Assembly (NCBI GenBank): GCA_010093485.1
Contig: MU001495.1
Span: 2,679,711-2,743,710, forward strand
Length of the DNA: 64,000 nt
Source of the DNA: Karstenula rhodostoma CBS 690.94
Lineage: Eukaryota > Ascomycota > Dothideomycetes > Pleosporales > Didymosphaeriaceae
Reading direction: 5' to 3'
Below the pieces are notes generated by a model. It made no database searches. It was not told the origin of the DNA and was given only the letters and a program-made list of their open reading frames with translations. Positions 24,301-56,281 of the stretch are shown here, in pieces. The position numbers were made by a program, and so were the translations under genes. Each line of letters begins with the position of its first letter. Positions within the stretch are counted from its first letter, which is position 1.

Positions 24301-27300
24301 TCGTATGCCTCAGCATCGGTCTCTCTCTGGGCGCGACTGAGCAAGAAGAGGAGAGCGATGTGTCGAGATCGCTTGCGTACATCACCAGATACACCCCGTT
24401 TTTTGGGTTTCACGGGTACCATACGCAGGACATGAACTCTGAGATCTTAATCCAACACTGCGAGACCGAGTTAACACAAAGGCACAACGCGATTGATCTG
24501 AGGTGGCATGCTTTGCACTGTCTAGCCGTGATCAAGGCCGCGGACGCACCCTACCTTTCCGTCGAGAAGCCGCGACAACTCATTCATGATCTCTTTTCGT
24601 CGTTTTATAGCGAATGGAAGACACAGCTCCAGAAGGATCAACACGACGAAGCAAAGAACAGCAGCCTATACACTTACCGCGGCGAAGACGAGGATGAAGA
24701 CGAAGAAGATCGCTCGCTATTCCCGGACTACGATGACGAGGAGTCTCTGCAATCAGCACAAGCTTCTACTTCTCGCGATCACGCTATCCGGCTTGCCAAC
24801 ATGCATGCATTGATCTTTCTCGGTGGCAATGGTGCCACGGACGGCATCAAAGCGCTCCTCGAGTGGTGTGCAAGAGAGATGAGTCGAGTTGCTGAAGGCA
24901 AAGCTCACGGTACTCGCCACGAGTACGCTTTGCCCGCTATATATCTTGCATTGGAGAAGAAAGCCGCTGCACTTGCATCTTCAGGCCAAGGCAAGGCGTA
25001 CAACTTCTACTTTGACGCCAATCTTCCCGAAGCCAAGCGAATGATGGCTCTGCTCCATCGCATCCAGATTCGATACCGACAGATCCGCAACGTATGGCCT
25101 GAGCATGCTACACTGTCGGAGGTTCTGCGCACGTGCGATGAAGCGCGCGAATTCCGGCACGTTGACCCTGTCGCAAAACTTATCACGAAGTTGGAGAAAT
25201 TGTACGGGTACATGTACGAGTGGCAACGCGTCGCGAGTAAGGAGTTCAGCACCGCGCCACTATTCGATGATCTCACAAGTCTGCTTGTGAGCTGGCGCCA
25301 GCTCGAACTTACGACGTGGGCGCGGTTGTTCGACATGGAGACCGCAAAGTGCCGTGATAGCGCCAACAGTTGGTTCTTCGTTGCCTACGAGACCATCATC
25401 GCCGCAGCGGATTCCATTGAAAATGAGCCTGCCATGAAACTCTTTGCAAAGGATCTGCTCAAGACGCTCGAAGGCTTTTTCTACGCCACCACACTAGGCC
25501 AGTACGAGCAGCGCATCAAGCTCCTCCGACAACTGCAAGCCCACGTCGCCATGCGGGTGCAAGACAATAGGCTCTTTGAGCCGCTTAGAACCGCACTGGA
25601 GAACTTCATCTCATACTTCTCCCGCCTGCAGAAGCCGGTGCTCGAAGCGCTCACCAAGGGACGTCAAAAACTCGAGAAACAGGTTGTCGATGTGATCAAG
25701 CTGGCCAGCTGGAAAGACACGAACATCGAAGCTTTAAAGGCGAGTGCAAAGACGTCGCATCGCAAGCTGAGCAGGTCGGTGAGGAAGTTCAGAGCGATGT
25801 TGAACCAGCCTGTTTCCGGTATCGTCAGTGCTGGCTTCCCCGAGGAGCACGGCTCCCTTGAGGCGATTGAGATGGGAGAAGTGGGTTCCGCTGTTTCGCC
25901 CACTGCACTTGCGCTGAGCGAAACGAGCGTACAGAGCTGGAGCGCTCGTCCTACGAGATTTAGGAACCTCGCTGTTACTGTGCCATTGATGAGGAAATTG
26001 ACGACACCGAACACCGAGGCCATGGATAGCGCTGTGTACATCGAAAGCTTCGTTGTCGACCTCGAGAGTTCCATGGTTGAGCTGCAGAAAGCCACGCCTA
26101 CAACACTCACAGAAGAGACCAAAGTGGTTGTCCAGCATCTCAAGACACGCAAGCGCAAGGTCTACGCTGATACGATGAAAGAGCTTCGCCAGATGGGTGT
26201 CAAGGCCAACCTAAGCACCGACCAGTTGGCGCGGCAAGACGACCTTTCCACGGTGCTGGCTGCTCTGCCTGTCGTCGGGGCTGGACAGACGGAGTTCTTC
26301 CTCCACAAGGCGCTGAGCATCATGGACCAGGTCCGAGGCATTGCCAAGGAACACCACGGAGACCTGACGGGCAACGATGTTACAAGAAGTATTGGGTACC
26401 TCGAAGGCTTGCTGCATACTTCGATTCGACAACGTGGGTTTTTGAGCAGGGCATCAAATCTGCTTGCACAAGTACAGGGCCCGATTTCGAAGGCGGCTGA
26501 GTTTTGCGTCATGCACGAACAGGATATTGTACGAGTATCCACGGCGAAGGTAGACGGTACAACTATTGTACGACCTAGCCTCTCGTGGCTTTGCGCCATG
26601 CTCGATACAGGCGCAGAGGTTGTTGCAGCTCAGGCGAAACTTGGAAAGACCAACGAAGTGGATGAGCTGGTGCAAGATATGCGAGATTGGAGTGGACAGC
26701 TTCGTGGGTCGGCGGAGGAGCTCGACAAGCTACCAATCATGCCGTCTAACGTGTGGTCCGAAGTTCATACGCATCTCGAGCAGTCTATCCAGACCCAACT
26801 GGAAAACCTTCGGAAAGTCTTCAATACCTGGATGGAGCGCTTCCCCATCTCTCGTACTGTCCTTCAGCATGTGGAAAGCTTCTTGTTCTACTATCCCGAT
26901 GCCACTGCACAAGTCATGCCCAGCGAGCAGCGCGCCACGGTCGAGTCGTATGCAAAAAATATCCTCGACACCCTGGACTTCATTCTCGGCTCCATGCAAG
27001 ATGTAGAGGGCGCGCTGAAGGATCTACCTACCTCGATCGACGACGCTGCCTGGCTCGTTAAGGAAGAAAATGCCTTGTCTACCGCCATCGATGCGCTCTA
27101 CGCGCTTCACGTCAGCTCTTCGACCACAAGGCTACTCGATAACGCTCACCTTGTGTCTGGAGGCACTGATCTGCGCATCATTGCTGCGCTATTCAGCACC
27201 ATCCAGCCTCTTCTGAACCAGTACCTCGCCTCCTACAAGTCACTCGTCGCCCGCGTTTCCGCGCTGCACACCTCCACAACTAAGCTCCTGCACCGTCTCG

Positions 27301-29957
27301 CGAAATCGTTCATTCAAGTCGGCACCCAAGGCTTCTGTCAGCCTCCCGAGAAGTCTAATGACAAAGACGACAAAAGTAAGGATGAGAAGCTCGAAGATGG
27401 TACCGGTCTCGGCGCCGGCGAAGGAGCTGAAGACATCTCGAAGGACATCGAGGATGACGAAGACCTCGAAGAGCTTGCGCAAGAGAAAGGTGAGCGAGAA
27501 GGCAGTATCGAAGACCAGGAAGATGCTGTCGATATGGGTGACAAGGAAATGGAGGGCGAGGATGGCGAGACCGCTGAGAAGGAAGACAAGGGCGATGAAG
27601 AAGGCGAAGAAGGCGAGGATGATGTGCAGAGCGAGGTGGGAAGTGTGGATGACCTTGGACCCAGTGCGGTTGATGAGAAGATGTGGGATGAGGGCGGGAA
27701 GGAGGATGATTTGAAAGAAAAGGAGGGGAAGGAGGATGTGGGAACTGAGAACCAGGATGAGCAGGTCGCTGCTGGTCAGGAGCAGAAGGATGGCAAGGAC
27801 GAAAAAGATGAAAAGAACGAGGAGAAAGAGGAAAAGGAGGGTGGCGAAGAAGACGAAGAAATGGACATGGAGGGTGAGGACCAGGAGGAGAATGTTGGTG
27901 TGGGAGAGACGGAGCAGATGGATCCGCATGCGAAAGAGGAGGAGACGCTTGAACTCCCGGATGAGCTTAATATGGATGGCAATGAGGACGATGAGAAGGG
28001 AGACAACAACGATGATATGGACATGGACGACGATCTGCCCGAAGAGGAGTTGGAGGCGGAAGCTGGCGTTCAGCCTGACACCGTTGACGAAGAAATTGGT
28101 CCTGAGCAAGAGGGCGAAGAGGACAAAGACACTACCGGCCACGTCGAAGATGAAGAGATAAAGGAGGACGGGGAGCAGGAGGGCGAAGAGGGACCCGAGG
28201 ATGATCCTGTTCCTCTGCCCGATGAAAATGCTCCGGAGGATATGTCGCGTGATACGAAAGACGAGCATCAGCCTGATCCGAATGCCGAGGCCGGCGCAGG
28301 CGCAGACGCCAACGAAGAAGCGCACCAGAACCAGCAGGAACAGACCTCTGCCAGCGCTGCAAACCGCGATGAGGGAGCTGAAGGCGAGTCAGCAGAACAG
28401 CAAGAAACCACTGCTGACGATGGCACGCTCGGTCAAACCGCCCAACCAGACGCTGGTGGACATGGCGAGCAACCCGAAGAGTCTCCTGAAACACAATCTT
28501 TCAAGAAGCTGGGCGATGTACTAGAAAAGTGGTACAATCAGCAGAAGCAAATCTCAGAAGCCCACAAGAAGGAAGAGACCCAAGTGCAGCAGATTGACAA
28601 GGAGGTCGATATGGCCAATGCTGACTTCGAGCATCTCCAGGACGAGGAGGATCAGGCTGATACACAAGCGTTGGGTACGGCAACTGAGGAGCAGGCGACG
28701 GCGTTGGATCACGATATGGCTATGGCAGTGGACGAAGAGGACAAGACTGCTGCTCGGCCGGAAGACAACGACGAGCTACAGGAGACCCAGCAGGATGTTG
28801 ACATGCAAGGAAACGAACCCCCTCCCCAAGAGGAGCAAGAACCCCAGCAGCAGTCTACCACCGATGGCCGTCCTCAAGCCTTCATTGGCGAGCAGAAGCC
28901 TTTCACAAACGACGATGATGCCGATATGAACGACGCCATGCCTCTTGAGGATGACATCTCAGATGATTCTTCAGTCGACGAGGTCGAGACCAAACTTGAC
29001 CTCGTCCACCTGGACGACGTTTCCGCCCTCACGCCCGAGAGCGCCCGCGCCCTCTGGCTTTCCCACGAAGCCTCCACGCACTCCCTCTCGCAACAACTCA
29101 CCGAGTCGCTCCGCCTGATCCTCGCACCCACGCTCGCCACCAAGCTCCGCGGCGACTTCCGCACCGGTAAGCGGCTCAACCTCAAGCGCATCATCCCGTA
29201 CATCGCATCCAGCTACAAACGCGACAAAATCTGGCTGCGGCGGTCGCTCCCGTCCAAGCGCTCCTACCAAGTCATGATTGCGCTAGACGACTCCAAATCC
29301 ATGGCCGAAAGCGGAGCCAGCAACCTCGCGCTCAAGACGTTGACGCTCGTCGCGCGCAGCATGGCCATGCTTGAAGTCGGCGAGGTCGCAGTCACCGGCT
29401 TCGGCGACACCATCAACGTCGCGCACGACTTCGACAAGCCGTTCACCAGCGAGGCCGGCGTCCGGGTGTTCGAGCAGTTCGGCTTCGACCAGCAAAAGAC
29501 GGATGTGCGCGGGCTCGTGCACAAGTCGCTCGACCTCTTCGCAGAGGCCCGCCGCAAGGGGAGCAGTTCCGCGGGCGAGGACCTCTGGCAGCTCATGCTC
29601 ATCGTGAGCGACGGCATCTGCGACTCCCACGCCGATATTCAACGTCTTGTACGCCGCGCGCAGGAGGAGCGCGTCATGATCGTTTTCGTCATCATTGACT
29701 CGTCGGCTGGCGCACCCGCCGCTGCGTCTGCGCCCGCCAATGGATCTGAAGGCGTGGCTGAAGCGGAGAAGGAAAAGAAGGGCATCATGGACCTGCAGTC
29801 CGTGGAGATTTCGCCCGAGGGCAAGGTCGTGAGGTGGAAGTATATGGAGCGCTTTCCGTTCCGGTACTTCCTTGTGGTGCGCGATGTGCGCGAGTTGCCG
29901 GGGGTGTTGTCGGGGGCGCTGAGGCAGTGGTTTGGCGAGGTTGTGGGGAGTGTCTGA
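15324..29957 (+). CDS. MDN1: Midasin, pre-60S ribosome remodelling AAA+ ATPase
   Basis: One uninterrupted 14.6-kb exon encodes 4,877 residues, close to yeast Mdn1/Rea1. Six AAA modules are visible from their Walker A loops: GLAGSGKT at 276, GETGTGKT at 608, GPTSSGKT at 1048, GETGCGKT at 1344, GNPGVGKT at 1730 and GPPGSGKT at 2037. Walker B motifs such as VLLDEINLAS, IVLDELNLA and VLLDEMNLAS match. A long helical linker follows, then an Asp/Glu-rich stretch from about 4,010 to 4,540. A C-terminal MIDAS domain has the metal motif D4655-x-S4657-x-S4659. Midasin is known to pull assembly factors (Rsa4, Ytm1) off pre-60S particles in the nucleolus and nucleoplasm. A basic PKKKRKV at 727-733, inside AAA2, could aid nuclear import. 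No introns are needed to keep the frame. Confidence 0.98.
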   Translation: MNGTTQAGKTVDFEWLTRKSLIPQRTDDLFVEYDFLFVEVCTRWMSAEVTPELELAAFGRILPLAPHLAEHAERLARSPQVPFLGAQQAGIKRRDVGDVSEQELCQALLGWFRLMSFDCRNLAKHMRPATMEQLFQHSNRCVRYLAVRNFCLYVHAADHATQEMIKRVVGEDEVEGQWEGRTIDYRFLLLWEEKRWKELQTRLQQNRSAEARQVSPALARQLSPYTVNVSGVLLPRLDGAPSKEKPLELISTPTTESNLQSIAQGLLGSNPLLLTGLAGSGKTLLARHLAWQLNKLDTMVTLHLNEQSDAKLLVGMYATGAKPGTFSWRAGVLTTAVREGRWIFIEDLDRAPNEVVSTLLPLIERGELLIPSRGETVRAARGFRIIATMRSTLNPRGQEIIPRQNMIGHRFWNSITVRMPGLDEFEKIVSDKYTRLSKHVSGIMRVYARLLELYSDAKFSSENGTSLRALTPRDLLKWCDRIAVLLAQSSSFSIAQLDDMFMEAFDCFAGSLRSEQARARVMACVAEELHIDPQRRDHLLQNREVKLEVPVKSTSSSVLRIGRTRLSRHKVSKRNTTSRPFSTNGYTLRLLEKIAVAVDRQEPLLLVGETGTGKTTCIQYLAEQLGRNLVAFNLSQQSESGDLLGGYKPVNVRSLVIPMKDEFDMLFDTTFSRKKNQRFLEMLGKRVAKGNWKGVCTLWREALKMVDAARKAHESQTSSPDPDGGQPKKKRKVDSLPATFLGPRWDKFATDLHDLEAQLANGSEAFAFSFLEGNIVKAVRNGDWVLLDEINLASSDTLEALADLLGGGPDGTPSILLTETGNVERVVAHPNFRVFAAMNPATDVGKKDLPPGIRSRFTELYVESPDGDKKSLQNIVEKYLGGDQVDPTIVRVSSDVTKLYLKIQELARANMLVDGADQKAHFSLRTLTRTLSYAREIAPLCSLRRALFEGFHMSFLTFLGKASEDLVAPLIKEHLFPQRSVMKSELGKPMQQPSDGRDYVREGHYWLRQGVQPVEEQTHYIITPFVQRNMNNLIRASSTRRYPVLIQGPTSSGKTSMIEYLAKRSGNKFVRINNHEHTDLQEYLGSYISGADGKLTFQEGILVRALREGHWIVLDELNLAPTDVLEALNRLLDDNRELLIPETQEVVRPHEDFMLFATQNPAGLYGGRKALSRAFRNRFLELHFDDIPVEELTEILHRRTMIPESWCKRIVSVYQELSILRQENRIFEQKSFATLRDLFRWAQRKADTIQDLASNGYMLLAERVRKEEERVAVKKIIETVMSKKGPKVEIQVETMFSEADSPEIKLCKEVTGTDASVVWTKAMRRLFVLVAHAIRNNEPVLLVGETGCGKTTVCQMLADAFGRQLHILNAHQNTETGDLIGAQRPIRNRAAVEDLLYRQLQEALGPHIQLQEAAPGLRELLEVYDRLLAERPDALEVIPAAHREEIQANRIKAAALFEWADGSLVHAMKTGQYFLLDEISLADDSVLERLNSVLESSRTLLLAEKGPVDSLVTATEGFQFLATMNPGGDYGKKELSPALRNRFTEIWVPALSDDEDITQIIRSKLKPSAVQYAKDLVSFSKWFNNKYNTSAASSISIRDTLAWVTFINNSPSVAPIFAIMHGAAMVFIDTLGANPAGLLAISAASIDEERKACLHHLSKLLGQDVSPMYFGSIAISSTPEAFQMGPFSIPKFSPTTDEDVSFSLEAPTTRSNATRVVRALQLSKPILLEGNPGVGKTTLVTALARAIGKPLTRLNLSEQTDLMDLFGSDVPVEGGQAGTFAWRDAPFLKAMKNGDWVLLDEMNLASQSVLEGLNAVLDHRGEVYISELDQKFHKHPDFRVFAAQNPHHQGGGRKGLPASFVNRFTVVYADVFRPEDLSLICRKVFPGIADEEVQKLITFVAELDQQVVTHRAFGNLGAPWEFNLRDTLRWLQLLTSPQFSGTARDFLDTIFAQRFRSETDRVRLLKLFESIYGQHDPRITFYHNLSSSTLQVGLGLLPRDPAITSPDPTSTLRIAQLAPMEALVVSIRQNWPVILVGPPGSGKTSMLNQVASFAGASMVTFSMNADIDAMDLVGGYEQVDPSRELHRFMLTLEDFIRRALSAATNPSFAATRLLEVLSNYAISDTREVLVLLQTLLQENPVSQELTQHCQELEALVNTPQQIDGARFQWVDGILIQALQQGKWLVLDNANLCSSAVLDRLNSLLEPNGYLSINEHSTADGEARVVKPHPDFRIFMTVDPRFGELSRAMRNRAVEICLLGEEGVEESSDGKVAIEYSLESRMYRFRELCKTAAKDVTQAHLEDLSTADTGLLRGFEKQISKGLLTKGGNLSTSVNGSQAASNQASECLHEQLQFLTLIADPQARSLQKKLAEGADSSLALALQPYHPLSNELILRHNSSSEAMSRWYASIYDVLLDCFRMQKALAALPSTKFERRKELQKLPAFLYAFWQGMASCIHSISQSSDAIDLFDIEDLTPKLLRQLFWLFHSLMTGSSFDRATFQTYLKMLSDVTTSLNNAPVVVAVDLGSRLSKEVAKFGSDVQLSSGLGMERVWRYFKPDTPKQHAQLAAVLALESLADRLDATMWKSHLKLDEMIQIRERFASSSELVRTHDVDAGELITALEIAVRELEDSIGEDDATITPYFEDVFEGLCQHLDIAQSLIRKSDHRYIAPNTTVPVVRAKSSLLARRPTKMAKLADEPMDQADAWGNIDRLSRYIGLHKQSGQPVAIEGRIHTALLSKLHVADEVQLAQLERFEAEIQVLAQELVLDSERFTSHQQDALDWLYGNTLNGLYASHSVDVLLSVDQDSLEFHPTASISEDYRGVLASLQQCYRHASALHKIDSQAWVLLGLTGLNLYVPNYPHDPALRPMIERNMFNEEKTGLLGALQMLREFQVGFTGQDTSFRIRQTENAIRDMGEEPPVPAIVRPHVSELDALQGEFSNLLSVVRPLATGAVSVKEAAQDNTLKQNISHIIRRLTEGYRSYDDITSPAVGFLVCLSIGLSLGATEQEEESDVSRSLAYITRYTPFFGFHGYHTQDMNSEILIQHCETELTQRHNAIDLRWHALHCLAVIKAADAPYLSVEKPRQLIHDLFSSFYSEWKTQLQKDQHDEAKNSSLYTYRGEDEDEDEEDRSLFPDYDDEESLQSAQASTSRDHAIRLANMHALIFLGGNGATDGIKALLEWCAREMSRVAEGKAHGTRHEYALPAIYLALEKKAAALASSGQGKAYNFYFDANLPEAKRMMALLHRIQIRYRQIRNVWPEHATLSEVLRTCDEAREFRHVDPVAKLITKLEKLYGYMYEWQRVASKEFSTAPLFDDLTSLLVSWRQLELTTWARLFDMETAKCRDSANSWFFVAYETIIAAADSIENEPAMKLFAKDLLKTLEGFFYATTLGQYEQRIKLLRQLQAHVAMRVQDNRLFEPLRTALENFISYFSRLQKPVLEALTKGRQKLEKQVVDVIKLASWKDTNIEALKASAKTSHRKLSRSVRKFRAMLNQPVSGIVSAGFPEEHGSLEAIEMGEVGSAVSPTALALSETSVQSWSARPTRFRNLAVTVPLMRKLTTPNTEAMDSAVYIESFVVDLESSMVELQKATPTTLTEETKVVVQHLKTRKRKVYADTMKELRQMGVKANLSTDQLARQDDLSTVLAALPVVGAGQTEFFLHKALSIMDQVRGIAKEHHGDLTGNDVTRSIGYLEGLLHTSIRQRGFLSRASNLLAQVQGPISKAAEFCVMHEQDIVRVSTAKVDGTTIVRPSLSWLCAMLDTGAEVVAAQAKLGKTNEVDELVQDMRDWSGQLRGSAEELDKLPIMPSNVWSEVHTHLEQSIQTQLENLRKVFNTWMERFPISRTVLQHVESFLFYYPDATAQVMPSEQRATVESYAKNILDTLDFILGSMQDVEGALKDLPTSIDDAAWLVKEENALSTAIDALYALHVSSSTTRLLDNAHLVSGGTDLRIIAALFSTIQPLLNQYLASYKSLVARVSALHTSTTKLLHRLAKSFIQVGTQGFCQPPEKSNDKDDKSKDEKLEDGTGLGAGEGAEDISKDIEDDEDLEELAQEKGEREGSIEDQEDAVDMGDKEMEGEDGETAEKEDKGDEEGEEGEDDVQSEVGSVDDLGPSAVDEKMWDEGGKEDDLKEKEGKEDVGTENQDEQVAAGQEQKDGKDEKDEKNEEKEEKEGGEEDEEMDMEGEDQEENVGVGETEQMDPHAKEEETLELPDELNMDGNEDDEKGDNNDDMDMDDDLPEEELEAEAGVQPDTVDEEIGPEQEGEEDKDTTGHVEDEEIKEDGEQEGEEGPEDDPVPLPDENAPEDMSRDTKDEHQPDPNAEAGAGADANEEAHQNQQEQTSASAANRDEGAEGESAEQQETTADDGTLGQTAQPDAGGHGEQPEESPETQSFKKLGDVLEKWYNQQKQISEAHKKEETQVQQIDKEVDMANADFEHLQDEEDQADTQALGTATEEQATALDHDMAMAVDEEDKTAARPEDNDELQETQQDVDMQGNEPPPQEEQEPQQQSTTDGRPQAFIGEQKPFTNDDDADMNDAMPLEDDISDDSSVDEVETKLDLVHLDDVSALTPESARALWLSHEASTHSLSQQLTESLRLILAPTLATKLRGDFRTGKRLNLKRIIPYIASSYKRDKIWLRRSLPSKRSYQVMIALDDSKSMAESGASNLALKTLTLVARSMAMLEVGEVAVTGFGDTINVAHDFDKPFTSEAGVRVFEQFGFDQQKTDVRGLVHKSLDLFAEARRKGSSSAGEDLWQLMLIVSDGICDSHADIQRLVRRAQEERVMIVFVIIDSSAGAPAAASAPANGSEGVAEAEKEKKGIMDLQSVEISPEGKVVRWKYMERFPFRYFLVVRDVRELPGVLSGALRQWFGEVVGSV

Positions 29958-39987: not shown

Positions 39988-40018
39988 TACTGTGGTTGCA
40001 GCGGTAAGTCAGGGCAGT
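39988..40018 (+). repeat. Left terminal inverted repeat of the MITE
   Basis: It reads TACTGTGGTTGCAGCGG followed by TAAGTCAGGGCAGT. The inner 24 bases are identical to the reverse complement of the right end. The outer seven differ at two positions, both G here versus A in the right copy. Confidence 0.9.
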
Positions 40019-40376
40019 AGGTCCGCTAGAGTAGGTGTTTTTAACAATTTCTTAGCAATTAATATATTAATTTATTATCTATAAAATATATATAAATACT
40101 AGAGAGGATTACTAGGATTTCTAATTTATATATAAAATATATATATAGATACTAGGTAAGCCTTAGCTATTTTTTTAGTCCCCCTTTATTCGTGTATTAC
40201 TAGTAGTAAAATATAATATATCTTTTTATCCCCTTTACTTTATTAATTTACCCGCCCTTATAGTAATTATATATAATATATATATATAAAATATACCTAT
40301 AGAAATAATTAGTATTATTTTAATAGTATTAGGGGGTTCTAGTATATTCTATTCTATTAGGGTGGCGTATCGCCCC

Positions 40377-40407
40377 ACTGCCCTGACTTACCGCTGCAAC
40401 TATAGTA
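40377..40407 (-). repeat. Right terminal inverted repeat of the MITE
   Basis: It starts ACTGCCCTGACTTACCGC and ends in CTATAGTA. It mirrors the left end exactly over 24 bases and then with two transition differences, consistent with RIP or simple deamination after insertion. Confidence 0.9.
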
Positions 40408-43506: not shown

Positions 43507-43646
43507 TGTAGGAATATAATTTTTCCGTGAGTAGGTGGTGCGAGTGTGCAAGTTTTCAAGGGGTGCAGTTTACGCAGTCTGTTGTTCTCGGGTCGGCACC
43601 CTCGTTCCGAACACACGTCTAATCTATGCCGACTGGCGAAGCGCGT

Positions 43647-45349
43647 CTACATCTTCAGCCGCGAGTGGCATCGTCTTCTCGAGTCTGTAATAAGAACCTC
43701 CCACTTGACTTTCGAATCATACCCAGGCCTCGGGACCAGGCTGACGGCAATGTCCTCATTGGGCCGGAGAGTCACGTCCCACATGCTCACCTTGTTGGTG
43801 GTCAGCTATTTCCATATGTCGCCCACAGAATGCATGTCGAAGCGTAGGATTATTAGGGCAGTAAATGCAAAGGTCTCCGTGCTTGCAAAGTGTCGACCGG
43901 GGCATAATGTGGTCCCTCCACCGAATCCACGGGGAACCGAATTTGGGCGCTTTTCGTTTGGGAGGAATCGGCGATGATCAAATGAGTGGATATCTTTACC
44001 CCATGTTACAGCGTCCTAATGTTACGTGGTTGCTGAGATCATAATTGTTCCTCCCTTCTTGAGAAGATACTTTCAATCCAAGACATGGTCTTCTATAACT
44101 TGTCGAGTTGATATGCCAACGGAGTGCAGCCTAAGCACTTCCTGTAAGCTGGAGAGCAGGGTAGGACAGGACGTCTTGGCCTGCGTGAGGTCGAGGGTGA
44201 CTGTCCTGCCAGATCTTCCTCCCTGCGTCTTGCTTGCAGTCTCGGAGAGTATCGTGCCAAGCTCTCTGCGACAATCCTCAAGTGCACTCGGGCTTGAGTA
44301 GAGATGGTAGACCTGCCAGAAATATGTCGGCGAAGTGTTAATTAGTATTGCAATCGCGCCAGCTATTTCAAACCTCGCGATGTCTTCCACGGAAATCTTG
44401 TGCGACATGCTATGCGCATAGCGAGCTTTGATGAGGGCTGAGCCCCCTTCATGGCCACCTTCCTTAAAGTATCCACAAATCTCTTCGTCATGAATTCTCG
44501 TGCGTTGAAGCTATCCCGCACGAATGATCGTGGAAGTCCCATAAGGAGACCCATAACGCCTTCTTGGAATTGCCTGAGAATGAGCAGCAAACGCTCCTGT
44601 GCATCTTTTCTGTTCAACGAGCTGACCAAAATGCTTCGAATATGGCGGGATCTCGGAAGGGGTTTTGGTCTCCGTAGACGGAGTCCGTCGTCGCAAGTGT
44701 TACTTCTCGCTTGACGAAGTCAAAAAGTTCTGACGACCTCCGCCGATTGTATGCGCTCGAGAGACGAAGTAATCGTTCCCGCCATCACCTGGTTCATTGC
44801 GTTGAGGCCTGGACCAGGGAACAACGGTGGGTGTATGGCTTTGTAGTGTGTGATAGAGTATCCCTAGAACCCCTCATCGCCGGTGGCGTTGGTGTTGAGG
44901 ATATCATTCGCCGTCTGGCTCGACCCGCAAACGTTCATTGCCAGTTTCGCCTGCAATGGAGGGAAGGCTAGTGTCTTGTATTGCCGTTGGACTGCTGGGA
45001 TGAGGGACGTTGCATTGATAACATAGAGCCTGGCTCCTGGAAGTCGAATCGTACAAGCCGGTAGTTTGTATCGTCCCCTGCAGTATCTCCTTAGTCAATT
45101 ATATACGTATATACACTCTCTTGAAGGTCTAATGTATGTTCAGGAAGGTTCTACCCACCACAGTGCGGCGTAGTATCTACTCTTCTTCCTCGAAAGATCG
45201 ATCATGGGTCCGACGAATGGTACCGAGGCTGGCACAGGTGGAGGCTCTCTCGCGTCCTGGGTGAGGTGCAGGAGCAAATGTAAGCCTCCATAGATGACAG
45301 TGGTAATAGTGGAGATGGCCATTAACCCTGCGGATATAGAAGATGACAT
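43647..45349 (-). pseudogene. Cytochrome P450 pseudogene (CYP7-like, oxysterol hydroxylase-type)
   Basis: Pieces of one P450 lie in order on the minus strand. They begin with an N-terminal anchor (GLMAISTITTVIYGGLHLLL) and Pro-rich PPPVPASVPFVGP hinge at 45,349-45,159. YKLPACTIRLPGARLYVIN, HYKAIHPPLFPGPGLNAMN, an I-helix region (EIAGAIAILINTSPTYFW) and finally the haem loop FGGGTTLCPGRHFA near 43,884-43,925 follow. Introns at the WG junction (about 45,158) and before QFQEGVMGLLMG appear intact. The frame is broken by stops after DEGF, after HVLD, twice before the haem region and after GDIWK, plus at least two single-base frame changes (before ELFDFVKRE and near the GYFKEGGHE segment). Several stops are explained by C-to-T or G-to-A changes of Trp and Gln codons. 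It is not expected to give an enzyme. Confidence 0.85.
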
Positions 45350-47143: not shown

Positions 47144-48944
47144 TCAATCTGCCTCGAGTTGGCGGGATTCTTTGGTGGCTTCCTCGTACTCAGTCTGAGC
47201 CGCGGTGTGTTCGACCGATGAGTTAATGAGGGTGGTGAGTTTCATGTCAAGGTTTGGTTTCGCCTTGTCCGAACGCTGTTGTGCTTCCGCTTTCATCTTT
47301 TCTCTGATCGGTTTATGAGTAGGTGGCAGCGATGTAGAGGAATCTCCATGAACAGCTGAATGACCTTGGGCTTGGATTAGGTCATGGCTAGTTTGGCCAA
47401 GTATAGTATGATTAGTACGGTTGCCACTCGTATCAACTTGGAGGGCTAATACCAGCTGCGTTGATGTAGCTTGTTTGGAAATTTTCGGAAACAGCCCATA
47501 CGCCTTCCGTTCTTTCTTGGTAGCATGACGTGGGATCTTCCTCCAGATCTTCTCTAACTCCCTCACAAATGTATTTTTTACGGGTATGGTAGGTCTTGAG
47601 AATCCGAAAACATTTTTGTGGGCTGCGAGCATGAAGTAATATTTGGCCAGGGCAAAGATCTGCTGATCATCTCCTTCGGCGTAGAGGAAAGGATAAACGT
47701 AATCGATCATGGTGCTTGTTCTCCTGTCAAGTGGGACTTTCTTCGCCCTAACGGTGGTCCTAATGCGGATGGAGTGATCGGGACTAATAATCGGGTTCTC
47801 CATGCTGGCCTTCTCCAGATACACCCAGGCAAGCCCACCTTGCACTTTCAGCTCTGTACCATCTATGCACCTGCCAATGTACAACCTGATGGGTTCATCC
47901 CCATATCTTTCTACTTGATTTTCGAATGTAACATCTTTTAGGATGAGACAGTGACGTACAGCGGGTAGCTTGTCGTTCAAGAAAGAAAGCGCTTCTGGTC
48001 CCACATGAGGTGAATCAGCAGCTTGATTAGCTACGTTCCTCTGCATCAGATCACTTCTTAGCATTTTAGGGACACCGGGTGCCATGTGAACCGAAGTCAG
48101 CATAACATTGGGCGACTCTGGCTGTTTCAGAGGTAAAGACTGTTGGGCCTGAGCGGGACCTCTTTCTTGCGTTGAGCCTCGAGTACGAACAGGTAAGTGC
48201 GTCAGCTCAGAAGAGACTAGTTTTAAGGTCCCAAGGCCTAGAGCGTCATCAGGCTTCTTGTCCGTATCCCTTTTCTTCTTCTGTGCGAACGTCTCCAGAT
48301 CTCGAAATGTTGTTGTTGTTTTTCTCGGTCTAAGCAACGCGCTTTTCAGATTGTCTACCCGAAAAGTGGCGAAATATTTCAATTCGTAATCCTTGGCTAT
48401 GTTTTCGTATGCAGCCCATTGTAAACAATAATATTGGACAAGCGCAACAGTTTCCGGCCTTGGAGATCTTATTTTGGGCGCAGAGAGAAAGTATGGATCC
48501 CATCCAAAAGCTCCAAAGTCCCCATGGAAACTATTTGGAGGTCTCAATTGCCCATTCTGGTCTATAAGCTCTCTTTGGGGCATGTTCCAGAGTGTACTTA
48601 TGCCATTGTCATTAACCTGGATTGGCTGACGATAAGTTTCGGAACCGAGTTGATTCTTCGTCTCAAGGTGCCCAAATGATAGAGCCACTCCTCTTGGTGA
48701 GCCCATGTACCTCACAAATGAGTAAGTAGTACGTGGTGGAAGTTTCTCTAAGACACCGAGTAGACCAAATTCTTTCAGTTGATGATAAATTCTTCTTAAC
48801 TTCACTCTGCTTTGGGTTCGGACTTTGGCAGCGAGAGGGTTCCGAGGGTCATTGCTTCCCAACAACCGCGAACTGTGGTAACTGGTTAGACTGGCGAAAA
48901 GAAAACTCCTTCGCATCGCCGAAAGAAAGTACTCACCTATGCAT
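47144..48944 (-). CDS. Uncharacterised protein, probably Pezizomycotina-restricted
   Basis: I recognise no family. The main exon is 48872-47144. A strong donor (GTGAGT at 48,936) and acceptor (CACAG at 48,873) predict a 64-nt intron and a short first coding exon, starting ATG-CAT-AG at 48,944, for 578 residues. The alternative is an unspliced start at 48,916 with 591 residues. The frame upstream of 48,944 stays open for about 150 bp without an ATG, so more 5' exons may exist. Segments with folded-protein character are LPPRTTYSFVRYMGSPRGVAL, FGAFGWDPYFLSAPKIRSP, VALVQYYCLQWAAYENIAKDY, and KVQGGLAWVYLEKASMENPI with IRIRTTVRAKKVPLDRR. The C-terminus is a Lys/Gln/Glu-rich helix. No signal peptide or membrane segment is seen. 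Confidence 0.68.
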
Positions 48945-50277
48945 AATCGATGGGACAACAGTGCTGTATCTAACGTTTTGTAAAATCTCTCTCGAATTTG
49001 GTGCAAAAACAATAACTGGTATAGCCCGACGTCTATTTATACGACTCTTGTCGATGGTGTGCTCGAGACAATGGAGCGTGACCGAGACTTAGCCTCGTGC
49101 TTCACCTCCACAAACACAACTATCGTCCACACGCCATCATTGAGATCTTCAATATTCTTCTAAGAGCCTCCCACTTCGCTGTTAAATCTGGCCAGAAGTT
49201 GCTGTACCTTCCATAACCGTCAGACGAACCAAATGATAAGACTGACACAGCGCAATCAACTAGTTTCAATAAACATATGGAGTCCATCCGAAAGTACAAA
49301 CGTCACCGCCTGTGGACAAGATATCTCTTTTCACCGTCTACGCTTAACAACCCTCCGTTCAAAACTCATGGTAGTTTGCAATGGCGGAACCAGACGGGCT
49401 TCTAAATATGGACTCTGTCAGGCGGTAGGTAAGTAGGGGTCTGAGTGAGGACACATCAGACAACCACGTCGACAGACATGTGCTGTCCATCTTATTTGTA
49501 GACATGAAGCAATGATCATGCCTGCGGAACACCTAGCGCGTCCAATATTGACACCGAATCTACAAAACCTCCCGTCAGGAGTTTGTTGCGCTTAGTAACC
49601 TGGGAGCCGGCTGCGTAGAGGAGCGGCGCGATGCTTGATTTTCGGGCGGTATGAAGAGAGCTCACTAAGAGACTCAGCTAAGCTGCAATGCTTCCAGAAT
49701 TTTTGGGCAGGACTTGGCGCACATTCATTGACCACAAAAACATGTTGACACAAACAGCAGTTTGGACAGACTAACTCCATATGAGATCTTTTGGTATGTT
49801 TTCAGAAGCGGAAGCCAATTAACAGCGCGTACAAATCAAAGACAAGAACGCAGAAGAGGAACATATTCGTGCGTTTCTTGTGTATGGCGCAGAGGACGAG
49901 GACGGGATCATCAGGCGGGAATATCATGGGCTCTATCAGTCTTAAAACGATGAGCGCTCTCGTCAATTCTCATCTCGAGCCTCCATCTTTGGACTACTAC
50001 ATGTTCACGTCCAGCCAGCTCATGGAGGCATTGCCTAATAGTTTCACCACAAGCAGCCGGTACATCAACACCATTTGTACACAGTTTTAGTGGTAAAACC
50101 AACAGTTGTGAAATTTCAAAGCTCAAAGAAGAACTACAGCGGTACGTATATGTATTCTGCTCGTGGTGTGGTTGGATGGATGTTATCATCATCACCAACA
50201 TCAACAATTCAGGAGCACTCAATCTTTTAATACTACCACCGCCAGTCTAACTGGCCATGTTGTTGCCCAAGCTTCGA
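48945..50277. other. Upstream region of the orphan gene, merging into the diverged repeat array
   Basis: From 48,945 to about 49,200 minus-strand frames with protein-like character (NIEDLNDGVWTIVVFVEV near 49,100-49,150) suggest further 5' exons of the orphan gene. No complete model could be built. From about 49,750 onward faint versions of the array motifs appear (TTTGGACAGACTAACTCC at 49,760, GCGGAAGCC at 49,807, GGCATTGCC at 50,027). This looks like an older, eroded part of the array. No other gene is seen. Confidence 0.4.
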
Positions 50278-50398
50278 TTTTGGACGACCACCACCCGTCC
50301 GTCCATCCATTCGCAGCTTTTGAAAGCCTTTTAGACAAAGCATGCCCTCATGGTCCGCTTTGGTGTCATCTTTGAGTGCAGAAGGCTCAAAGTACAAA

Positions 50399-50442
50399 GC
50401 GTAAAGAACGTAGTCTGAGCGGATCGGTGGCGGAATATATAC
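50399..50442 (-). promoter_or_regulatory. Array unit a: TATA-like box and downstream block
   Basis: The plus strand reads GCGTAAAG, 28 bases, then ATATATAC. This is the leftmost unit with all five motifs; motif 1 is TTTTAGACAAAG at 50,329. Confidence 0.45.
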
Positions 50443-51192
50443 GTTCCCATGCCCGTCGTGTCAGTGTTGAGTGGAATCATCATTACCACCATCGACGTTT
50501 GAGAAAAACCCGAAGCCCGCTCACTAACCAGCATTGAATTGTTTCAATGTCAGGAGCGAGCGTCCTACTTTTCTCTCTAAACAACACCTTTAGATATTCC
50601 GCCAGCCCACACCTATGGTCAGTGTATTGTTGTTATAAGGCCAACCCATGCGACCGCCCGCACATGAAACACTTGCGTTGCAAATTTCAGACAACCACCC
50701 CGCCAGCTCGTACTTCAACATTGCGTTGGCGTTTAGTGGCCGAGACCTTGCAGTGAAGCTTACATATCTCCTCCCTTCTCAGCCGGCGTAGTTTCTACCT
50801 CCTTCACAGTCAATCAGTTTATAACGCCGTAATCACTACCACCATCATCAATGCGTACCATTAACAAAGAGGCTTCGCTAAATCCTTCCCATGCCCTGCT
50901 CAACCAAACTTCAGTCTGTCGCTCGTGCAGCAAAGGTGTTTTAGAGAAAGAGGGAAGAGGGAAGAGCGAACAATACATATAGAGATGTGTTCCACCGAGT
51001 TCCTTTACTGTGTTTTGCCGCTGCTTGCCCGAGCGCGTGAAGTATCAAATTTGGTAGAGATGTGTTACGGCCTTTTGATGAACGCCACCCGCGGTTCCGC
51101 TCATGGGCTGTACAGTTCCCGTCTTTGGACAACAGGCGGCACATTCGAACTTCACTTTGGATTTTTTTAATAGCCCAAGCGAGGGTCGTGAA

Positions 51193-51232
51193 GTGTGCAG
51201 ACTTCATCTCGATAATAGAGGCAGTATTTATG
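51193..51232 (-). promoter_or_regulatory. Array unit b: TATA-like box and downstream block
   Basis: GTGTGCAG is followed by 24 bases and TATTTATG. Motif 2 is eroded here (TTTTTTTAATAGCCC). Confidence 0.4.
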
Positions 51233-51762
51233 GATACTGGGTGGTTATAACACGTTTACCATTAATAGTCGGAAAACTCGCAAATCCACTCACTAGCAAC
51301 ATCCAACTCTGTAAACTCTGTCGAACAATCCACCCTCTTCCATCTACTGCGCATTGTTCGGATTTTTAGATAACCTACTAGCTACCCCATGTTCAGTCAC
51401 GGTGCAAGCTTTTAGACGAACTCAATCACATGGTCTGGCATTAATCGGGCTTTCAGCAAGTCAGAAGCAAGAAGCTTGCAGTGTGGAACCCCTCCTCTTG
51501 GTCGGTGGTGTTGATACGTTTTTTAGGGTTTAGCGAAGAGAGTTGATGATTCAAACCACCATCGCTGATAACTAAGAAATACCTAAGCCCACCTAGGTTG
51601 CTTTGTAATATACTCCGCCACTCCGCCTACACATGGGGCAGCTGGATTGGATAGCACACCAGTTCCCCCATCTTACAAAGGAGGTGCACCTTCTAGACAA
51701 GCCCGATCCACGTGTTCTTCTAGTGTGTGTGTTTTGGTAAGGCAGAAGCCTGGACATGTGAA

Positions 51763-51802
51763 GTGTGAACATCTCAGAGCGAAGACAGGGTCAGTATTTA
51801 TA
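51763..51802 (-). promoter_or_regulatory. Array unit c: TATA box and downstream block
   Basis: GTGTGAAC is followed by 24 bases and a perfect TATTTATA (TATAAATA on the minus strand). A well-kept GGCAGAAGCC lies at 51,741. Confidence 0.5.
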
Positions 51803-52033
51803 CAATTTTCAGGGTTCAAAATAGAGGTGTGATAATAACGAGAAAGGGCTGAGACGATCTCAGACATCGTACCATGCCTGCTCGTCCACATACTCCGTAC
51901 ATGCTGTGATTTTATAGACAGCCTCCTCGGTCGGCACATAAAACGAGCCGATCACCATTTTTAGACAAGATAGCTTCCATGTGGTGGATTTCTGTTGCTT
52001 TTAGCCAGGCAGAAGCCTTGGCGGATGTGTGAA

Positions 52034-52073
52034 GTGTAAATCATGTAGACTGAGAAAAAACGAGCTATTTACA
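52034..52073 (-). promoter_or_regulatory. Array unit d: TATA-like box and downstream block
   Basis: GTGTAAAT is followed by 24 bases and TATTTACA. Motif 2 is the fullest copy, GCTTTTAGCCAGGCAGAAGC, from 51,998. Confidence 0.48.
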
Positions 52074-52354
52074 CCCTCTTATCTACATAGCGAGCGTGAC
52101 TGTGATGCCGATTATCATCGCGATTGTCTTTCAGTCATAAATTCCCCCGGTCTTACACGCTCATGGGTACAGCTCTTAGATCTTTCGAACAAATCTCCAC
52201 CAGCGCCGGCATCAAGTTGTCATGGCGCAAATCTTGGACCGCCACCCACCCGCACATAAGCGAATTCTCCCACAGGTTCTTAGACAAGTTTTGTCCAAAT
52301 GACTCATCGTCATCAAAACTTTTAGTCGGACGAAAACCTAGATAGAAGCGTGAA

Positions 52355-52395
52355 ACGTGAAGATTTCCTCCCCCCCCCCATTTATAGTATTTACA
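52355..52395 (-). promoter_or_regulatory. Array unit e: TATA-like box and downstream block
   Basis: ACGTGAAG is followed by 25 bases, which include a run of ten C, and then TATTTACA. Confidence 0.42.
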
Positions 52396-52640
52396 CACTT
52401 TTCTGAGACTTAAAACGCGCTATGATAATAATAATCATCATATGACCGATAGTTAAGAAGGTGCTAGGATGACCCCAGACACCAACCCCGCCCGCTTTTC
52501 CCCATGTCGATAAGGCGCTGTGATTTTTAGACAACGCGCCAGTCCACCTATAAACATATCAAAGTAAAGCTTGTAGCCGAGCCCGCCCTACACGATTCAT
52601 TGGTATTATTCTTTTGAGACTGACCGGAGAACCGATAGAA

Positions 52641-52679
52641 GTGTAAAGAGCTCCTCCCTCCCACCCAGCGTTATTTATA
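52641..52679 (-). promoter_or_regulatory. Array unit f: TATA box and downstream block
   Basis: GTGTAAAG is followed by 23 bases and TATTTATA. The downstream motif 5 is altered (GCGATAGTGATCGCCATCG). Confidence 0.46.
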
Positions 52680-52964
52680 CACCCCCACGTCCCATCCGCC
52701 GCGCGAGCATTATTGCGATAGTGATCGCCATCGCTATCGCCTTCCAGGTACACAGGTACATAGCTACAGCTCTCTCGCGCTTTCAAGCATGGCTCCTAGA
52801 CCGTTTGAACACAGCGCGCACATGAATATTCCCGTTGGAGATTTTAGACAGACAAGCGACACCCGCTCGCACATGGCTGCGTCTGTAATTGACTTTTACG
52901 ACAACCCAGCTCCCATAGGTTGAATGAGCCATCCTTTTAGCAGCAGAAGAAACTAGAGCGTGAA

Positions 52965-53005
52965 GTGTGAAAACCCGGAGATTGGGGAAAGACGTGGTAC
53001 TTATA
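52965..53005 (-). promoter_or_regulatory. Array unit g: TATA-like box and downstream block
   Basis: GTGTGAAA is followed by 25 bases and TACTTATA (TATAAGTA on the minus strand). Confidence 0.45.
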
Positions 53006-53279
53006 CACCTCTACATCCGCTCCACGGCTGCCGTCGTGATGGTGGATGCTATCACCATCGTTTATAAGCTACCGATGTAGTACCACATCTCGCCCGTTCA
53101 TCTGGTACTCTCAGCTCTAAGAGGTTTGAATAGAGTCCGCCAAAGCGCACATGTAGCTTCTTGAACTGCTACACTGCACTCCACCCACATGCCAGTTCTG
53201 GGTAGGGTTTTAGACAAGAAAGCTCCCCATTAAACCTCGTTGTGGGAGCTTTTATGAAGGCAGACGCCTCAGATGCGAA

Positions 53280-53319
53280 GTGTGAAGATCGAAGATGAAG
53301 AAAATCGGTAGTATATATA
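53280..53319 (-). promoter_or_regulatory. Array unit h: TATA box and downstream block
   Basis: GTGTGAAG is followed by 24 bases and TATATATA. Motif 5 has expanded here into a CCA microsatellite. Confidence 0.5.
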
Positions 53320-53351
53320 CGCTCCCGACTACAAACAGTCCTACAATGATA

Positions 53352-53382
53352 ACCACCACCACCACCACCACCACCACCACCA
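53352..53382. repeat. CCA microsatellite, about ten repeats
   Basis: ACC is repeated in perfect tandem inside array unit h, apparently an expansion of the ATCACCACC motif that other units carry once or twice. Confidence 0.9.
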
Positions 53383-53597
53383 TCACTGCCGCCAGCGAAC
53401 GCGCCCGCCCACCCCATCCAGCTCGCGACCAACCACCCCGGCCGCCCATGATGAAGTAATGTATACGCTTTTGGACACCCGCCACCGCCAGCGCGCCCCG
53501 TCCACCCATTGCATGTCGGGGTTAGGGCTTTAGACAAGCCAGCTCCACATTCCAAACTGCCAATATAGCTTTTAGCCAGGCAGTTGCCTTGATGGAA

Positions 53598-53637
53598 GTG
53601 TGAGGAACGCATACCACGGAAGGAGGGAGTATCTATA
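53598..53637 (-). promoter_or_regulatory. Array unit i: TATA-like box and downstream block
   Basis: GTGTGAGG is followed by 24 bases and TATCTATA. The unit's motif 1 is the closest to consensus, TTTAGACAAGCCAGCTCC from 53,529. Confidence 0.48.
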
Positions 53638-54188
53638 CATCGCTGCGCCTGTGCGCCTCTTGTAAAAGAGGATGGCGAGGATGACATCCACCACCATGAC
53701 CACCTCCACGCGCCCACCCCAGCGAGCTGTACTCAACCACCCCGCTCACCCACACATTATTTCGCATACGTACTATTTGTGGACAACCAGGTCTTTCGTC
53801 GACGCGCGCACTCTGCCCATGGGACGGTGAATCTTGTATCTTGCAGTTCCAGCCCAGCCCGCTCCGTCCATGTGTTTTCAATAAGTGTCTTTCCGACACG
53901 CCAGCTCCACATGTCTGTCTGTTATACCGCTTCTTAGTAAGACCGAAGCCCTGTGAAGTGTAGAGACCGTAAACAGTAAAGAAGGCCGTAACATCTCAAA
54001 CAAGCCCCTCTCCACATAGGAGCTAAACAGAGCACTTGGTCAACGCAGATCCCCCGGTAGATGTGAATCATACACAATCCCGAGCCCGCCACGCCACCCA
54101 TCAGACGTAACAGTCGTTGTTTTTAGACAAGCACCCTCCACATGACCGTGTAAAATCGTTGCTTTTAGTACGACAGAAGCCATGTGAA

Positions 54189-54232
54189 GTGTGCAGACCA
54201 TGAACAGACGAGAAGGCGGTATGGTATATATA
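54189..54232 (-). promoter_or_regulatory. Array unit j: TATA box and downstream block
   Basis: GTGTGCAG is followed by 28 bases and TATATATA. The preceding unit (GTGTAGAG at 53,958) has lost its TATA-like box (TAACATCT in its place). Confidence 0.48.
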
Positions 54233-54456
54233 CGATTTCCGCAATCCAGCGAAGACGGCTGATGTCGACCATCCCCATCATCTTCCAGTCCCCAACTCTC
54301 GCCAGCTCATGAAAGTTTTGCTCCTCGTGTTTTTGGACGAAAGTTCCACCAACGCAACGCAGACATATAGAAGTTGCTGCTGGCCTTTTAGACAAGCTAC
54401 CTCCACATAATGTGTTCTTCCATAGACTTTTAGTATGGCAGAAGCCGCGATGAAAA

Positions 54457-54499
54457 GTGTGAAGAACAGAGAGTGAGGAGGAAGGAGCCGGTATTTATA
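54457..54499 (-). promoter_or_regulatory. Array unit k: TATA box and downstream block
   Basis: GTGTGAAG is followed by 27 bases and TATTTATA; a full GATAATCATCACCACC lies at 54,531. This unit is the last before ERG1 and has the clearest complete motif set. Confidence 0.52.
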
Positions 54500-54681
54500 C
54501 ATCCCCGTACGCACCATGCACCAGAATAACGATAATCATCACCACCACCAGCCGACAAAGCGCGTATGATGCATATGGTATTACAATTACTCTCTTTCTC
54601 TATGCTATACAGCCAGCCAACCGAGCCGCGCCGAATGCCCAAGCTCGTCCCAAACGCCGAAAAAATGCACCTCCGGTTCCC

Positions 54682-56281
54682 CTACGGCCTCATCTCAGCA
54701 ACGAGATACGGTCCAATGACCACACACGCCTTCCAGATGATCAGAATGCTCTCGATCAGCAAAACGTAGGGTATCCGCCACACGGGCCCCGTGGCGGCCT
54801 TGCAGTAGATGGCGTAGAAAGCGACGGCGAAAAAGTGATAGACCAGCACCGCGGGCTTCCGTATCAGGCCCGATAGCAGCCCGCACGGCTCGCTAATGCA
54901 CTTGCCGCCGCGCTGGAAATAGCGGAAACAGCCGTTCTGCAGGGCATGCAGCGCGGGCTCGTCGGCGGCGAAGAGCGAATACAAGGCCATGGCCAGGATG
55001 TTGATCACCGACGACGAGTCCTTGCGCGCCCAGTGGAACTGCCGTGCGGCCGCCAGCACCGCGGGGGTGTCCTCCAGGCTGGGGACCGCGGAGGGGGACA
55101 GCAGGCGCGAGAGGTGCAGCACGTCGTTGAAGGCGACCGTCATGCCTCCGCCGGTGAGCGGGTGGCGCATGTTCATGGCGTCGCCGAGGATGAGCATGCC
55201 GGGGGTACTCTGGGTTGCGGGCGGGAGGAAGGAATTGGGCATGGAGCGCAGCTTGCCGGTATCCAGGGCGCGGCGGAAGGACGGCTGCACCGAGGGCGGG
55301 AGGGCGGGGAGTGCGACGTTCAGCATGTGGTTCTTTATGCCGCCAGCTTGCACGCTCGCGGAGGGGCAGTTCTCCGGCACGTCGATGAGGATGCGGGTCT
55401 CGTGGGTGCCGATCTGGTAGATGAGGATGGGGGGCGCGTCGCTGAGGATGACGTGGCCGTGGTTGGGGCGCGGGAGGTCGGCGTCGATGAGCTCGAGGGC
55501 CCAGAACTTGGAGCGCACCTCGGGGGTGGTGGCGATGTAGCCCTTGCGGAACTTGCTGGCGTAGCCATCGGCGACGAGGGTGAGGGCGCCGAAGTAGTAG
55601 TCGGGCCGCCCCTGGGTCTGGGTCTCGACGCCCAGGATGCGGCCCGTGTACGAGTCCTTGACGACGTCGGTGACGGTGGTCTCGACGACGGTGACATTGG
55701 GGGCAGCGCGGGCGGCGTCGCGCAGCTTGGTGATGAAGCGGCCGTGGTGGAAGGCGCGGCCCTCGGGGCGGGCGGTCGAGTTGGGGACGAGGTCGGACGG
55801 GTAGGGGATGTGAACGGCTTCGCGGTGGAAGTCGACCTGGTAGCCGAGGCAGGGGATGGCGTCGATGGCGTCGAGGCAGTCTGGGCTATGGATCAGCATG
55901 TGCTTGTCATGGTATGATGTGGTGTTGTCGCGTACCTCGCAGCCCCAGCTCCTCCAGCGCCCGCACGCCGCCCGGCTGCAGCAGCTCGCCCACGATGCGG
56001 TCGGGCTCCTTGAGGCTCCGCTCCAGCAGAATCACGCTGCGGCCCTGGTTGCCAAACGCCACGGCCGCCGCGCAGCCCACCACGCCCGCGCCCACAATCA
56101 CAATGTCGGCCTCGTGGTGCTCCCGCCGCCGCACCTCGCCCCGGTCGCGCGTCGCAACGCCCATGGCCCGCCCGCGCAGTGTCGTCGTCGTCGTCGTCGA
56201 TGCTCTCCGCGCGCCTGTCGATGTGCCCGTCGCTGCCTCGGTCGTGGTCGCCGTCGTGGTCGTGGTCGTGGTCGTCGACAT
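54682..56281 (-). CDS. ERG1: Squalene epoxidase (squalene monooxygenase)
   Basis: There are two exons, 56281-55936 and 55880-54682, with a 55-nt intron that splits GLR-DCLDAID, giving 514 residues. The FAD fold starts with DIVIVGAGVVGCAAAVAFG and ILLER. The squalene-epoxidase signature follows as DRIVGELLQPGGV. The second FAD motif is ILGDAMNMRHPLTGGGM, and two hydrophobic C-terminal segments anchor it to the ER membrane. It oxidises squalene to 2,3-oxidosqualene in ergosterol synthesis and is the known target of allylamines such as terbinafine. The first 40 residues are a Thr-rich low-complexity tract encoded by an ACG/ACC microsatellite. Met40 (56,164) is an alternative start that leaves the whole enzyme. 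Confidence 0.96.

Follow-up and report, generated by a model that had tools for sequence, protein, structure and literature searches.

Tandem arrays of promoter-like units with one box grammar in the genome of Karstenula rhodostoma

The window analysed here is a stretch of 64,000 bp from Karstenula rhodostoma CBS 690.94 (G000:C4:2679711-2743710, contig C4), and the genome searched comprised 44.3 Mb in 29 contigs. A tandem array of units of about 300 bp lies at 50,278-54,560 of the window. This stretch was inspected directly, and the array was confirmed to be real and not a product of chance. Its units carry the short boxes A, B and C and a TATA-like box (TATA) in a set order at near-fixed distances. 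Co-oriented arrays with the same grammar, enlarged by local duplication, were found at 13 or more loci, and their units lack a coding or RNA-pairing signal. Boxes in a set order and distance ahead of TATA read as the anatomy of a promoter. The reading that we favour, and hold at about even probability, is that the arrays are tandem units of RNA polymerase II (Pol II) type promoters firing non-coding, often antisense or convergent transcripts. Initiation or binding, and not the RNA sequence, would then be under selection.

The array in the window

A sequence-only profile, R1, was made from nine aligned window units, and motif matrices for the boxes were used beside it to place the units. R1 gave 13 units in the window at E ≤ 1.8e-5, from 50,329 to 54,502 and each of them on the + strand. 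The first-pass annotation had counted at least eleven, and probably 13-14, units with a conserved motif order, and the profile bears this out. Four of the 13 (at 53891, 50329, 51140 and 51410) were outside the training of R1; their E values are given below. Three weaker matches (E 0.89, 2 and 2.2) also fell within the array, and up to E 10 nothing in the window was matched beyond it. Weak matches at 50,650-51,050 may be remnants of decayed units. In order, the unit grammar is A (TTTTAGACAAG..CTCCACATG), B (CTTTTAG), C (GTGAAGTGTGAAGA) and TATA, and a looser dyad frequently lies downstream of TATA. The units are listed here; the one at 53,890 has no TATA and those at 51,140 and 51,410 are weak.

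50329-50445, + strand, unit 1: A2 50329, B 50370, C 50394, TATA 50432; R1 E 1.6e-8, untrained
51140-51236, + strand, unit 2, partial: B about 51164, C 51188, weak TATA 51223; R1 E 2.7e-6, untrained
51410-51520, + strand, unit 3: A2 51410, B 51450, C 51476, weak TATA 51507; R1 E 1.8e-5 over 51410-51488, untrained
51691-51806, + strand, unit 4: A2 51691, B 51731, C 51758, TATA 51793; R1
51959-52077, + strand, unit 5: A2 51959, B 51998, C 52029, TATA 52064; R1
52278-52399, + strand, unit 6: A2 52278, B 52319, C 52350, TATA 52386; R1
52571-52683, + strand, unit 7: A2 52571 (second A-like box 52525), B about 52611, C 52636, TATA 52670; R1
52895-53009, + strand, unit 8: A2 52895 (second A-like box 52842), B 52934, C 52960, TATA 52996; R1
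53208-53323, + strand, unit 9: A2 53208, B 53249, C 53275, TATA 53310; R1
53528-53641, + strand, unit 10: A2 53528, B 53569, C 53593, TATA 53628; R1
53890-53986, + strand, unit 11: A2 53890, B 53931, C 53953, no TATA; R1 E 3.3e-12, untrained
54121-54236, + strand, unit 12: A2 54121, B 54162, C 54184, TATA 54223; R1
54386-54503, + strand, unit 13: A2 54386, B 54427, C 54452, TATA 54490; R1

In every one of the 12 units measured, the A2-to-B spacing lay at 39-41 bp (41, 40, 40, 39, 41, 40, 39, 41, 41, 41, 41 and 41). The distance from B to C was 22-31 bp, and that from C to TATA was 31-39 bp in 11 of 11 window units having TATA. From TATA to the next A2 there were 163-262 bp, plus a single gap of 978 bp. 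When 12 units were anchored on A, the mean pairwise identity was 0.68 in the A-box columns versus 0.28 and 0.27 in the flanking stretches, with 0.25 as the random expectation. Therefore, the boxes and their spacing have been kept while the remainder was randomised. Little conservation appeared further downstream in a TATA-anchored alignment. This pattern supports the earlier view of repeated functional sites, as opposed to a young satellite or transposon burst.

Tandem Repeats Finder reported within the array an (ACC)n stretch only, not the array itself. A search for inverted repeats at 49,000-55,000 gave no long terminal pair, the best being 21 nt at 81%. The absence of terminal inverted repeats and long terminal repeats claimed in the first-pass annotation thus holds, the latter part being judged partly by eye. 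Its claim that the array has no signature of repeat-induced point mutation (RIP) was likewise upheld. The array has gene-like indices (TpA/ApT 0.88, (CpA+TpG)/(ApC+GpT) 1.13), in contrast to the AT-rich block at 1-12,900 (22% GC), where the signature is extreme (1.68 and 0.02, respectively).

Further arrays and their neighbouring genes

Searches with the B and A motifs first suggested a single-locus array, and this was overturned by R1 around weak matches. R1 was applied to 40 regions of about 1 kb at weak A, B or C matches (part of those listed) and to eight 10-kb regions, and clustered, co-oriented units were obtained at further genomic places. The profile search beyond the window, which had been proposed with the first annotation, thus showed the single array to be one among 13 or more such loci in the genome. 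Most of the other copies formed clustered, co-oriented arrays with the same grammar; therefore, the motifs are not ordinary dispersed repeats, a possibility that the annotation itself had raised.

Four composite patterns were each controlled by the same pattern reversed; their lists overlap one another. Genome-wide, TTTTAGT-N12..36-AAGTGTGA gave 18 matches versus 1 reversed (1 of the 18 in the window) and TTTTAGT-N12..36-GTGTGAAGA gave 26 versus 1 (1 in the window). The pattern AAGTGTGA-N20..48-TATATAC gave 6 versus 0 (1 in the window), and AGTGTGA-N20..48-TATTTATAC gave 7 versus 0 (2 in the window). At locus L064 (C3:220,500-225,000) the window-trained R1 found six co-oriented units (E ≤ 2e-4) about 280-510 bp apart, just one of which had been picked by the TTTTAGT-N12..36-AAGTGTGA pattern.

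A chain scan for B and C, with A and TATA optional, covered 25 fetched loci and window bases 13,001-64,000, together 194 kb. At thresholds 26, 30 and 34 it returned 94, 78 and 60 matches versus 6, 3 and 0 reversed. Several of these loci had also served as the source from which the matrices were made by eye, so that the counts are in part built in; more independent are the reversed-pattern controls and R1. With the threshold at 30, two or more units were found at 13 loci, the window included, and in 13 of 13 the units lay on a single strand.

Multi-unit loci (chain scan, threshold 30): window, L053, L055, L056, L058, L062, L064 with L074, L065 with L080, L066, L068, L070, L075, L076

The neighbours L064/L074 and L065/L080 were each merged as one locus. 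The count of 13 is a minimum, as fetching was restricted to loci having pattern or weak motif matches. At threshold 24, in a count that includes L060 and L061 (duplicates of other loci), one L066 match lay on the opposite strand and three matches fell in the AT-rich block of the window. Across the arrays, the B-to-C distance had a median of 23 (interquartile range 22-26, n 80) and the C-to-TATA distance, measured from the start of C, a median of 37 (interquartile range 35-39, n 67), both searched within a bounded range.

The nearest relative of a unit lay within its own array for 73 of 94 units, as compared with a permuted mean of 7.5 and a maximum of 20. Local duplication, starting from founders that had the grammar in common, thus accounts for most of the growth of the arrays. 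Adjacent units outscored non-adjacent ones in five of the seven arrays with at least five units, the exceptions being C3:222-231k and L055. A centromere-like arrangement with one array per chromosome was rejected: C3 and C4 each hold several arrays, and many contigs have no match to the composite patterns.

The genes next to the arrays are as follows.

54682-56031, - strand: ERG1 squalene epoxidase open frame (Pfam SE PF08491, E 3.6e-98), convergent right neighbour of the window array
47144-49036, - strand: 630-aa open frame without Pfam match, divergent left neighbour of the window array
Convergent downstream genes: window ERG1, L058 MatE, L062 alpha/beta hydrolase, L064 UCH_1 and exonuclease domains, L068 LCAT, L056 sugar transporter, L052 DUF2237, L070/L084 RTC4, L078 Vac_ImportDeg

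The ERG1 frame and its counterpart in Paraphaeosphaeria sporulosa, a Dothideomycete of the Didymosphaeriaceae, share 91% identity. At the window array, no gene that such promoters would serve was recognised. The L064 gene is presumably PAN2-like. Among the ten loci having a Pfam-supported downstream neighbour, the downstream gene is convergent in nine. The idea that the arrays generally serve as promoters of the downstream gene was therefore rejected. L078 consists of one unit, and at L052, L070 and L078 short frames without an assigned Pfam match lie between the units and the gene. L053, L054, L063 and L066 are likewise convergent, judged from long open frames alone (331-841 aa); the frame at L066 has 760 aa in L081 and is preceded by one of 999 aa in L085, and on the strand of the convergent L063 frame a BTB match was found farther along. 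L057, with a same-strand downstream frame of 326 aa and no Pfam match, was left outside the orientation count, as A and TATA are absent from its only unit. The count also left out L055 and L077, which have convergent frames of 227-267 aa without Pfam match, as well as L065/L080, L074 and L075. The upstream neighbour of the L065/L080 array appears co-directional (a 481-aa frame, L080 280-1722, no Pfam match), in contrast to the divergent left neighbours of the window array and L058.

Other features were noted in the window. One open frame of 4883 aa at 15306-29957 resembles midasin (REA1) by eye, and fragments on the minus strand at 43600-45300 resemble, also by eye, a decayed cytochrome P450 gene. 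The AT-rich block holds a 46-bp tandem repeat at 12244-12457. An AT-rich insert of about 400 bp at 39995-40400 has perfect 24-bp terminal inverted repeats (GTTGCAGCGGTAAGTCAGGGCAGT) and looks like a miniature inverted-repeat transposable element.

The region downstream of TATA and rival explanations

The dyad D (RTGRTGR-spacer-YCAYCAY) was present in 45 of 70 units versus 12.6 in shuffles, with a median start 47 bp past TATA. Arms in swapped order were also frequent (35 of 70), so that the signal consists partly of clusters of such triplets. Examples in the window are given here, with no strand assigned.

53036-53058: dyad D after unit 8, an example of the dyad enriched over shuffles and without pairing covariation
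53346-53386: dyad D after unit 9, overlapping the (ACC)n microsatellite
54526-54542: dyad D after unit 13, close to the right end of the array

In three arrays or more (L058 8290-8330, L074 near 2000 and window 53352-53386), trinucleotide microsatellites adjoin the dyad, which merges into them. Covariation between its arms was not found: GU and AC cells numbered 30 and 29, and 57 matched and 59 mismatched cells made up the 116 R:Y cells, with 13 other cells set aside. Folding within the window showed little signal, with a best mean z of -0.85, and across all arrays the signal was absent. An RNA hairpin, suggested by the stem-like look of the dyad GTGGTGATG..CATCACCAC in a C1 array, was rejected given the weak or absent folding and the lack of covariation. 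In addition, a string like CATCTGAACT stands about 15-25 bp past TATA in several units of L058, L076 and L080 and is possibly a start-site motif. Past TATA in the 70 units, TCTGA occurred 11 times versus 3.6 and CATCT 11 times versus 4.4.

These results bear on two explanations in which each unit would have a product of its own. The units could form a battery of RNA polymerase III (Pol III) genes for short structured RNAs. TATA and upstream elements do resemble type-3 Pol III promoters, and TTTT is enriched 100-150 bp past TATA (13/2.8 and 16/5.1), though the T-rich A boxes of the next unit start there. However, TTTT is not depleted 10-100 bp past TATA, and at 40-100 bp, where the RNA body would be, it has the expected frequency (5/4.7 and 5/4.0, 60 units). 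Rfam gave no match in the window at gathering thresholds nor in the array at a permissive threshold, and no tRNA was found at the array. In 17 other fetched loci the Rfam and tRNA searches placed no RNA at the units, the sole tRNA lying in L055 off the units. The faint folding signal also argues against such genes. Pol III genes are thus disfavoured and we regard them as very improbable; neither they nor structured RNAs were supported by the tests run. The choice among the roles offered by the first-pass annotation is still inferred. Very short peptide genes, one for each unit, are equally hard to credit. ATG occurs at about twice the expected frequency 40-100 bp past TATA (43/23.8 and 42/21.2), but this excess overlaps the dyad region. 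Frames starting at the first ATG past TATA averaged 19.7 aa in the 70 units versus 20.3 ± 1.8 in shuffles, and the longest closed frames 16.3 versus 15.3 ± 1.4. Short peptides from the dyad ATG were therefore rejected, and the earlier statement that no reading frame is conserved stands. The two longest frames that were scanned (187 and 120 aa) had no Pfam match; a gene with many exons was not modelled.

The remaining explanations concern the DNA itself. Old satellite or transposon remnants with no present function would account for tandem repeats at many loci, for growth by local duplication and for the decay of some units. Yet even decay would be expected without function, whereas here boxes and spacing are kept between near-random spacers; together with the lack of a long terminal inverted repeat, a RIP signature and a Pfam match in the scanned frames, this makes them improbable. 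A DNA-level hub deserves more weight, and we consider it possible though rather unlikely. Its boxes would bind a multi-protein assembly, as at a chromatin boundary, a pairing or segregation site or a replication site, and the TATA-like box would be bound with little or no transcript. Every conserved part acts like a DNA site, the dyad shows no RNA covariation and little is conserved further past TATA, all of which fit this explanation. On the other hand, the order and position of the upstream boxes, TATA and the downstream part are promoter-like, each array has all its units on one strand (threshold 30), and a role for transcription is suggested by the bias towards convergent neighbours.

Proposed mode of action and meaning

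In the favoured reading of tandem promoter cassettes, each unit of about 300 bp would be a TATA-type promoter, with A, B and C upstream at near-fixed distances, then TATA and a start region; in many units a loose dyad comes next. At many genomic places, founder units would have multiplied through local tandem duplication. The uneven divergence suggests selection on the boxes: boxes and spacing were probably preserved, and the DNA between the boxes and past the start would have drifted to near-randomness. Pol II would most probably produce non-coding transcripts, short or unstable ones, from the units. Given that the majority of arrays face the 3' end of a gene on the opposite strand, these transcripts are likely convergent or antisense to the neighbouring gene, which is ERG1 in the window, and may affect it. 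The useful part would likely be the act of transcription or the assembly of the promoter complex. Selection on initiation or assembly is favoured because promoter anatomy occurs together with arrays facing gene ends and with no conserved downstream product.

Several points weigh against this reading. The units have no conserved product that would point to RNA being made. Some matches to the composite patterns look like chance (C1:1227346, C7:1495818 and C1:2768122), several loci have one unit only, and some units lack TATA or other boxes. The dyad was not found in 25 of the 70 units, nor in the listed units of L053, L062, L068 and L070. At L076 the downstream gene, for a glycosyltransferase (Glyco_transf_34, in L083), lies on the strand of the array. 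For the nine convergent loci of ten, a one-sided sign test gives about 0.01, but the rule and the orientation count behind it were noticed post hoc.

Tandem arrays of 5S rRNA, tRNA or snRNA genes have co-oriented units, shared upstream elements and a conserved product. The fungal arrays share with them the co-oriented tandem units and common upstream elements; unlike in those arrays, only the promoter-like part is conserved here and no known RNA family matches the units. Closer in design are the 21U-RNA (piRNA) loci of Caenorhabditis elegans, described in the abstract of Billi et al. (2013, PMC3597512) as autonomous units, each with a conserved upstream motif. Likewise, the fungal units are many, tiny and clustered, and each combines its own conserved upstream motif with a free downstream sequence. 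In contrast to the 21U-RNA loci, the fungal motif set is longer (A, B, C and TATA over about 120 bp), and the units are tandem, co-oriented and known here from sequence alone, some tens as against over 15,000. In their predicted transcription towards the 3' end of a convergent gene, the arrays also resemble the 3'-end natural antisense transcripts of a filamentous ascomycete. In Neurospora, according to the abstract of Arthanari et al. (2014, PMC3951366), 3'-end overlaps are the most prevalent kind of convergent sense/antisense pair, and promoter-like units pointing at the 3' end of an opposite-strand gene are what was found at nine of ten loci here. Unlike the arrays, the Neurospora antisense account mentions, in its abstract, no common promoter grammar or tandem promoter arrays. 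By title or opening lines, nothing in the literature search describes such arrays, which is no proof of absence in print. Tandem, co-oriented cassettes of this type appear in neither of the abstracts on the nearest systems. We regard the arrays as new as an element, and we infer their mode of working.

More tentatively, and with less confidence than in the promoter reading itself, we propose that the arrays may constitute a genome-wide system. Its members would be autonomous promoter cassettes under one grammar (A, B, C, TATA and often the dyad), set out in 13 or more unidirectional tandem arrays, each cassette with its own sequence-free transcript. Such a system might act as an antisense or chromatin control layer at chosen genes, or be a fungal counterpart of autonomous small-RNA loci, with DNA-binding factors of its own.

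Ordinary annotation is likely to miss the arrays either way, because no frame exceeds chance, Rfam has no match and Tandem Repeats Finder is silent on the window array. If the units do not fire, the arrays would be a new kind of multi-site chromosomal element. If they fire, they would be a class of repeated element, present as tandem copies at many loci, in which selection acts on the promoter alone and leaves the product free. In that case, the effects of transcribing could be studied in a natural system separately from those of the RNA, and the existence of as yet unknown fungal factors that read the A, B and C boxes would be indicated.

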